64,000 nt of DNA. Source: Thecaphora thlaspeos. Lineage: Eukaryota; Basidiomycota; Ustilaginomycetes; Urocystidales; Glomosporiaceae. Below are positions 16,930-18,782 of this stretch, in pieces. Numbering within the stretch: position 1 is the first letter of the stretch; the number at the start of each line of letters is the position of its first letter. The stretch spans positions 434,001 through 498,000 of the forward strand of contig UWYS01000004.1 in assembly GCA_900291925.1 (NCBI GenBank), written 5' to 3'. The notes below the pieces were generated by a model. That model made no database searches. It worked only from the letters and a program-made list of their open reading frames with translations, and was not told the origin of the DNA. The translations under genes were made by a program, and so were the position numbers.

Positions 16930-18782
16930 ATGGTCCGAGGTAGCTCCATAGATCCCTCGCGCTACGCGTCCTTGTCCCTGACACACGTCCGCTGTGAGTA
17001 GACTCACCCTCGCCGTATGGTCAACTACCATGCGCTGTCCCCGAAAGCCTCTCGCCTTTCCCTGACAGTCCCCTGCCTGCGCCTTCTCACCTGCCACAGA
17101 CGACCCCGATGATCCCTTCTCCAAGATTCTGTCGCTCGCCACGCTCTCTCCAATCTTCCTCCTGTGCTCCTACGTGACCATCATCCTGTACCGTCGCGAG
17201 CTGACCTTCATCAATGCGCTCCTCGGCCAGCTGAGCTGCGAAGGTCTCAACTTGCTCCTGAAGCGACTCATTCGTCAACCTCGGCCCACGGCCGACTTCG
17301 GGTTGGGCTACGGCATGCCCAGCTCCCACTCGCAGTTCCTCGGCTTCTTTGCGGCCTTCTTCCTGGCCCACTTTGGCCTGAACCGACCGCCGCCCATGCG
17401 CAAGAGGACCCTGGTCGGCATCATGAGGAGGGCCGAACACGACGCCGCTATGGTTGCGATCGCGGTGCTGGCGGCTGTGACCTGCTACTCCAGGTGAGTG
17501 CATCCACGTCGGTATCAAGGTAGCGAATGGTGAAGCTGACACGGCTCAAGTTTTCCGTTACAGGTACCACCTTCACTACCACACCCCGCTGCAGATCTTT
17601 GTCGGCGCATCCATTGGGCTGGTCTACGGCAGCCTATACTACTACCTGACGGAGCATCTGACTCGCGAGGCCCTCTGCCTGCCCGCGCCATTCGGTGTCG
17701 GCTCGGACTCGTCCTCCATCGCCATTAAGACCAACCGCCTGATTGCTCCCACGTCGACCTCGTCCAGCCTGCGCCAACGCAGACCTTCCCAGAGCGCCAG
17801 CACGTCCAGACCGACGCAGGCCAGAGGCGGACACCATCGACGTAGGTTCAGCCTCTCGGAACGACTCATACCCGATCTTCACCCTGCCCCGCCCCTCCGG
17901 CAGATGATTCTCGACCATCCCATCTCGGTCGCCTTCCGACTGCGAGATAGCTGGATGGTCTGGCGCGATGGTGGCATCGAAGGCGAGTACGGAACGTGGC
18001 AGCGGGAGTGGATGAAGAGACGCAAGCCATGGAAGAGCCACTACGATTCACACGCCCCGTCCGACGCGTCTATAGATGTCGACGAGGCGGAAGTGGAGGG
18101 GGGCCAGCAACCGGAATTAGAGCGACACTACAATCTCATGATCACGGCACTTCGGGAAGCCGACAGGTGCGTACCGCTCACCACGGCCTTTTGCGTCGGA
18201 TGCGTCATCGCCGTCCAACCCAGCTCGGGCCCATCCTCGGTCGCCGGACGGGTGCTCACGTCGGGCTTTTCGCGCGAGCTCCCCGGAAACACACACGCCG
18301 AACAGTGTGCCCTTGAAAAGCTCGAAGAGCTGTACGGTCGACGTTGCACCCTCTCGTCCACGTCGCCCAAGGTTCGCAGGACCATCAAGCTCGATCTCTA
18401 CACAACGATGGAACCCTGCTCGGAAAGACTGAGCGGCAATGCGCCGTGCGTCCAGCGAATCCTCGCTTTTAACCAGGCAGGCCAGGCTGGCGAGCTCGTC
18501 TTTTCGCTGCCCACTGACGACGACCAGGAGGAGGAAGTGGTGCTGGCGATCCAAAGGGTGTTGCAGGGCGTCTCGGAGCCCGAGGATTTCGTGAAATGTC
18601 AAGGCGCCAAGACGCTGAGGGACGACAGGGTCGATGTCGCCGTTGTCAAGGCTCCACGGGCAAAGGCGGAGGGTGGCATCGGCGGTGATTGGCTCGAGAT
18701 GGAATGCCTGAGGATCGCGAAAAAGGGACACGAGGACGAACCAAGGGCCGACGAAAAGGTTGCGGCTATGTGGAAGAAGTAG
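16930..18782 (+). CDS. apparent fusion: dolichyldiphosphatase (PAP2) joined to a Rib2-type DRAP deaminase
   Basis: Three exons in consistent phase, 16930-16993, 17100-17493 and 17564-18782, encode 558 residues with no stop between two unrelated enzymes. Residues 1-300 match Cax4/DOLPP1, the ER-lumenal phosphatase that recycles dolichyl pyrophosphate after N-glycosylation. KRLIRQPRP lies at 76-84, PSSHSQF at 95-101 and SRYHLHYHTPLQ at 152-163, with hydrophobic segments between, and a RLRDSWMVW tail region. Residues from about 338 onward match the C-terminal deaminase of yeast Rib2 (riboflavin pathway): TAFCVGCVIAV, then ELPGNTHAEQCALEKL (His397, Glu399), then YTTMEPCSERLSGNAPCVQR (Cys438, Cys448). 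These are the zinc and proton-transfer residues of the CMP/DRAP deaminase fold. The yeast Rib2 pseudouridine synthase half is absent. An internal start, for example the ATG at 17904, could alternatively give a separate deaminase. The domain calls are firm; that one polypeptide is made is inferred. Confidence 0.82.

Follow-up and report, generated by a model that had tools for sequence, protein, structure and literature searches.

Yeast Cax4/Cwh8 and mammalian DOLPP1 are dolichyl-diphosphate phosphatases of the PAP2 type that, to our knowledge, end without a second enzyme. RIB2-type deaminases convert 2,5-diamino-6-ribitylamino-4(3H)-pyrimidinone 5′-phosphate (DARIPP, also called DRAP) to 5-amino-6-ribitylamino-2,4(1H,3H)-pyrimidinedione 5′-phosphate (ARIPP) in riboflavin synthesis. 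According to the accessible text of the respective papers, CWH8 is short, with 241 residues (PMC12505894), the active site of yeast Cwh8/Cax4 faces the lumen of the endoplasmic reticulum (ER) (PMC12505894, PMC6829516), and the deaminase of yeast Rib2 is attached C-terminally to an unrelated enzyme (PMC8256712), a pseudouridine synthase. Here we describe a locus of the smut fungus Thecaphora thlaspeos (16930 to 18782) at which a RIB2-type deaminase is likewise the C-terminal partner of an unrelated protein, in this case a membrane phosphatase. It lies in a window of 64,000 nt (contig UWYS01000004.1, positions 434,001 to 498,000, forward strand); coordinates below are those of the window, and P numbers denote individual proteins. 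Very probably, this is one gene encoding one ER membrane protein in which a dolichyl-diphosphate phosphatase and the deaminase are joined as independent enzymes.

The splice model and its translation connect three exons to one frame of 558 codons, yielding a protein of 558 residues. The features, all on the plus strand, are as follows.

16930 to 16993, plus strand: exon 1, with the ATG at 16930 (splice model, translation; the N-terminus aligns with P0001 and P0002)
16994 to 17099, plus strand: intron 1, GT-AG, phase 1 (junction backed by the THVRYDP alignment with relatives)
17100 to 17493, plus strand: exon 2, with membrane helices and PAP2 motifs 1 and 2 (splice model, alignment)
17261 to 17287, plus strand: PAP2 motif 1, KRLIRQPRP, in exon 2
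17318 to 17329, plus strand: PAP2 motif 2, PSSH, in exon 2
17489 to 17582, plus strand: PAP2 motif 3, straddling intron 2
17494 to 17563, plus strand: intron 2, GT-AG, phase 2, splitting the Arg codon of PAP2 motif 3 (splice model)
17564 to 18782, plus strand: exon 3, with the remainder of motif 3, the final helix, tail, linker, deaminase and the closing TAG at 18780 to 18782 (frame analysis)
17871 to 18026, plus strand: phosphatase C-terminal tail, residues 256 to 307 (alignment; also in the unfused Tilletia phosphatases P0041 to P0044)
18027 to 18116, plus strand: inter-domain linker, residues 308 to 337, without Met (alignment, coordinate check)
18117 to 18779, plus strand: predicted RIB2-type deaminase domain, residues 338 to 558 (Pfam, PDB 7drz with E 9.9e-19, fold comparison)
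18294 to 18302, plus strand: deaminase zinc motif HAE
18411 to 18449, plus strand: deaminase zinc motif EPC...PC

The deaminase-bearing frame is open from 17481 to the stop ending at 18782 in the raw DNA, with no gene model needed. Within exon 3 the coding frame is free of stops until the TAG, and the remaining five frames contain 3, 7, 10, 12 and 13 stops. The GC content at third codon positions is high throughout, with 0.82 for the PAP2 core, 0.73 for the deaminase and 0.70 for the 30-codon linker; because first-position GC in the linker (0.73) slightly exceeds this last value, the bias lends weak support to coding there. An earlier note, made from these letters, had placed both enzymes in one frame, which the spliced frame bears out, and had assigned the third PAP2 motif to the last exon. 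That exon holds most, not all, of the motif, because its Arg codon is split by intron 2 (17492-17493/17564). The linker of about 180 residues that the note described is indeed in frame, but resolves into three parts: 57 low-complexity residues after the final membrane helix (199 to 255), a conserved tail of 52 residues containing LRDSWMVWRDGGIEGEYGTWQREW and common to the unfused Tilletia phosphatases, and a true linker of about 30 residues. The borders of tail, linker and deaminase are our choice from the alignment.

The best Pfam match of the deaminase is PF18785 (Inv-AAD, E 1.3e-25), and its closest PDB sequence match is Rib2 of Aspergillus oryzae (AoRib2; 7drz, E 9.9e-19). In a fold comparison, the model of the relative P0002 matched Rib2 best, with APOBEC3G at E 5.8e-3, and NCBIfam gave matches below cut-off only, chiefly to the bacterial ribD model. 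The zinc motifs HxE and PCx8-9C are present as HAE and EPCSERLSGNAPC, intact as the earlier note had stated, and the Cys loop is kept in all 48 pattern-selected proteins. In AoRib2, the side chains of Asn59, Arg105, Ser107 and Glu136 bind DARIPP and Thr53 also contacts the substrate (accessible text of PMC8256712). With the AoRib2 chain numbering verified, the four aligned positions of the window protein are occupied by Asn, Arg, Ser and Glu, and that of Thr53 by Ser. AoRib2 (PDB 7dry, 7drz, 7ds0, 7ds1) is the nearest solved structure and has the zinc residues and most of the DARIPP-binding residues in common with the window deaminase; it is, however, a stand-alone soluble monomer without a membrane domain, whereas the deaminase studied here is fused to a membrane phosphatase. 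By sequence the C-terminal half is a RIB2-type DRAP (DARIPP) deaminase, with this activity predicted.

The N-terminal half has its membrane helices and all three PAP2 motifs, K(x6)RP, PSxH and SR(x5)H, within residues 1 to 198. The P0002 model matches PAP2 structures in the fold comparison, and a PDB sequence search with the phosphatase half gave no significant match (best E 0.11). Relatives of the window protein carry the source names Dolichyldiphosphatase or related to CAX4, and within the own genome the runner-up match to this half is much poorer (E 4.1e-9, 35% identity). By these names and by the PAP2 motifs common to them, we liken it to yeast Cax4/Cwh8 and mammalian DOLPP1 and predict a Cax4/DOLPP1-type dolichyl-diphosphate phosphatase. 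Riboflavin intermediates are expected in the cytosol. Motif 3 opens the last long helix of the P0002 model (residues 161 to 187), so that one further crossing would remain and would place tail and deaminase in the cytosol. From this model and by analogy with yeast Cwh8/Cax4, we infer that the phosphatase active site faces the ER lumen and that the deaminase, tethered flexibly behind the final membrane helix by the linker, would convert DARIPP to ARIPP. Deamination of the riboflavin precursor thus probably takes place at the cytosolic surface of the ER.

The same architecture recurs among predicted proteins of related fungi. We examined the best 120 of 344 matches to the full protein (sizes up to about 970 residues) and the best 120 of 1735 matches to the deaminase (proteins of about 123 to 390 residues). 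Among the matches listed, two-domain relatives occur in Pseudozyma flocculosa (69% identity) and Thecaphora frezii (70%), as well as in Pseudozyma hubeiensis, Ustilago, Sporisorium, Moesziomyces, Kalmanozyma, Melanopsichium, Testicularia, Violaceomyces, Tilletiaria, Microstroma, Ceraceosorus, Sympodiomycopsis, Parajaminaea, Exobasidium, Meira and Malassezia; some of these entries are partial, for example P0047 from Meira. They represent three classes and eight of the nine Ustilaginomycotina orders sampled (Ustilaginales, Urocystidales, Violaceomycetales, Georgefischeriales, Ceraceosorales, Microstromatales, Exobasidiales and Malasseziales), the order being assigned by taxonomy look-up from one species for each of the eight. 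The conserved co-linearity in related smuts that the earlier note had proposed as its own test is thus found at the protein level in eight orders, with separate proteins in Tilletia. No phosphatase-deaminase fusion is named for a fungus outside Ustilaginomycotina among the best 120 of the 344 matches, and rusts, Rhodotorula-type yeasts and mushrooms have the deaminase alone among the proteins of about 123 to 390 residues covered by the deaminase search. P0129 from Malassezia pachydermatis is a deaminase-only model whose start resembles the phosphatase tail and which therefore probably represents the fusion in truncated form. P0038, whose source name is the fern Adiantum nelumboides, clusters with Meira and Exobasidium in our trees; a fungal contaminant in the fern assembly is its probable origin.

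The ninth order differs. In Tilletia, phosphatases of 322 to 332 residues (P0041 to P0044) are separate from deaminases of 212 to 235 residues (P0121 to P0124); these are close relatives of both halves, phosphatase tail included, but unfused. The clusters of Tilletia horrida P0042 and P0121 list the same longest contig of exactly 17027 bases, and the two genes are therefore probably neighbours. A further protein, P0046 from Tilletia controversa, is a partial model of 700 residues with PAP2 and pyridine-nucleotide redox domains, perhaps a merged gene model, and was left unused.

To trace the history of the fusion, we built trees from rows that we picked among 224 proteins, 56 for the deaminase and 53 for phosphatase plus deaminase; the latter omits P0103, P0114 and P0123 and contains outgroups that lack the phosphatase half. 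The deaminase tree places the fused proteins and Tilletia in one group (support 97/87) adjoining two long-branched rust sequences, and the group is retained in the two-half tree (95/93). Tilletia falls within the fused group in the deaminase-only tree (83/84) and beside Tilletiaria and P0030 in the two-half tree (91/84). A clade of all fused proteins without Tilletia was not rejected by the approximately unbiased test in either the deaminase tree (p 0.268) or the two-half tree (p 0.211). In the NCBI taxonomy, Tilletiales belong to Exobasidiomycetes together with fused orders, which favours, without proving it, one fusion event and a later split in Tilletia. Most likely, two genes, probably neighbours, joined early in Ustilaginomycotina, and the fusion was retained because both halves are needed; Tilletia would either have re-split it or never have had it. 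Neutral joining of adjacent genes that was later kept is the simplest history.

We also searched the own genome (20.6 Mb, 32 contigs) for other candidates. With the deaminase as query only its own locus matched at E up to 10, and the PF18785 profile likewise matched only the window locus in this genome. PF00383 matches six loci, namely that of the window, one read as a dCMP deaminase and four further loci, and the single match to PF00849 (pseudouridine synthase) sits on a different contig from the fusion. The domains of five other riboflavin enzymes were found (Rib7, Rib1, Rib4, Rib5 and Rib3), that of Rib1 at two loci, C14 and C20. A second RIB2-type deaminase is thus likely absent by these searches, and because none was found, the riboflavin synthesis of this fungus probably depends on the fusion.

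These observations bear on other explanations of the locus. That an assembly or gene-model artefact merely joins two adjacent genes is hardly credible: such a merge would be easy where the genes are neighbours, as P0042 and P0121 of T. horrida probably are, but the unannotated window DNA already holds the open frame, and the same fusion appears in entries of many genera. We rejected a local artefact since the same in-frame architecture recurs across these genera. Only slightly less improbable is a deaminase redirected to another substrate, for example nucleic acids. The best Pfam name, Inv-AAD, is AID/APOBEC-like, and other AID/APOBEC models weakly reach the relatives P0036 and P0121 below cut-off; none of them matched the window's third-exon protein at E up to 0.01. 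PF18785 also matches the yeast-type Rib2 protein P0119, and more strongly (6.8e-36) than the window protein, so the AID/APOBEC reading of the Pfam name was rejected. The DARIPP-binding residues of AoRib2 (accessible text of PMC8256712) are preserved, and the own genome, which holds domains of the remaining riboflavin pathway, yielded no other RIB2-type deaminase.

A more serious alternative, though still an unlikely one, is that the locus yields the full-length fusion plus a free deaminase, through an internal promoter, an internal start or cleavage of the linker; riboflavin synthesis would then be cytosolic as in other fungi. The existence of separate proteins in Tilletia fits this possibility, and so does the linker, which is probably disordered because its equivalent in P0002 (residues 307 to 338) is predicted with low confidence (pLDDT under 50). 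The phosphatase tail of the window protein moreover includes a Met (REWMKRR), upstream of the deaminase; this Met is common to only one of 28 aligned relatives, P0002, and some relatives have other Met residues within the tail. Linkers were measured with fixed offsets in 43 of the 48 pattern-selected proteins (five unanchored, P0064 apparently mis-anchored), and 36 of these 43 contain no Met. Their length is variable while the frame is preserved, with only about 7 residues in Malassezia cuniculi, about 9 in M. psittaci, 12 in Exobasidium and 15 in Meira. Such linkers leave scant room for an intergenic promoter in those relatives, and the hidden deaminase promoter that the earlier note considered is accordingly disfavoured.

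Several points weigh against a single fused protein with both functions. Tilletia shows that the fusion is not obligatory, and the tail Met of the window protein could start a nearly complete deaminase. Relatives were assessed as predicted proteins, not DNA, and querying with the fusion favours the retrieval of fusions. Searching the own genome means that top candidates alone are scored, each exon separately, so the absence of a second copy is likely, yet unproven. The orthology to Cax4 draws on source names and motifs. What the sequences show is the open spliced frame, the intact motifs of both enzymes, the fusion in eight of the nine orders and no second RIB2-type deaminase among the genome matches; that there is one transcript, that both enzymes are active and that the topology is as described is inferred, and we regard one ER membrane protein as the very probable product.

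The Rib7 reductase catalyzes the riboflavin step before the deaminase. RibD_C (Rib7-type) has a single match in the genome, embedded in frame within a coronin-like WD40 protein of 1275 residues, counted from a start Met of our choice.

L024:2248-6072 (G000:C7:658000-664500), minus strand: coronin-Rib7 fusion (profile match, in-frame translation)

The same Rib7 insert is found at the same place in coronin in P0225 from Pseudozyma flocculosa and P0226 from Thecaphora frezii, with whole-protein identities of 69.2% and 64.7% over aligned columns. In five further proteins of 1205 to 1544 residues (P0227, P0228, P0229, P0230 and P0231), a Rib7-type domain is fused to a Sec7 domain; P0227, P0228, P0230 and P0231 are named Tilletia, and the domain scan was run on P0227 and P0230. 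This homologue search took in proteins of about 700 to 2230 residues, a range that unfused Rib7 falls outside. It is doubtful that Ustilaginomycotina more than once relocated successive riboflavin enzymes to carriers of the endomembrane system or cytoskeleton rather than acquiring neutral accidents; if they did, reactive riboflavin intermediates would be placed at the endomembrane surface, perhaps channelling flavin to ER enzymes. In other unusual fusions, a RIB2-type deaminase is joined to a uridine-kinase-type domain (P0088) or, in P0091, to a Ran-binding one; PAP2 is joined to MOSC (P0090), and Rib7 to aminotransferase and RNA methyltransferase domains in P0232 from Rhizophlyctis.

Fused genes often join enzymes that act together, and we know of no functional link between the riboflavin deaminase and the dolichol-recycling phosphatase. 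Genes used together have been argued to tend towards fusion (accessible text of PMC9925542); for this pair no shared use is known to us. Among the papers listed by searches of open-licence PubMed Central text (at most 20 per search, of up to 172; subscription papers lie outside this scope), none describes the phosphatase-deaminase or the coronin-Rib7 fusion, judging by titles and abstract openings; the earlier note likewise knew of no description of the former. Databases already record both domains in one entry, and the architecture is apparently undiscussed as far as we have seen.

Annotating the gene as a dolichyldiphosphatase alone would conceal the predicted riboflavin deaminase of these fungi, and Tilletia offers a test case for gene fission. 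If the fusion protein functions as predicted, riboflavin synthesis would gain a fixed cellular location, and disruption of one gene would strike N-glycosylation and riboflavin synthesis together.
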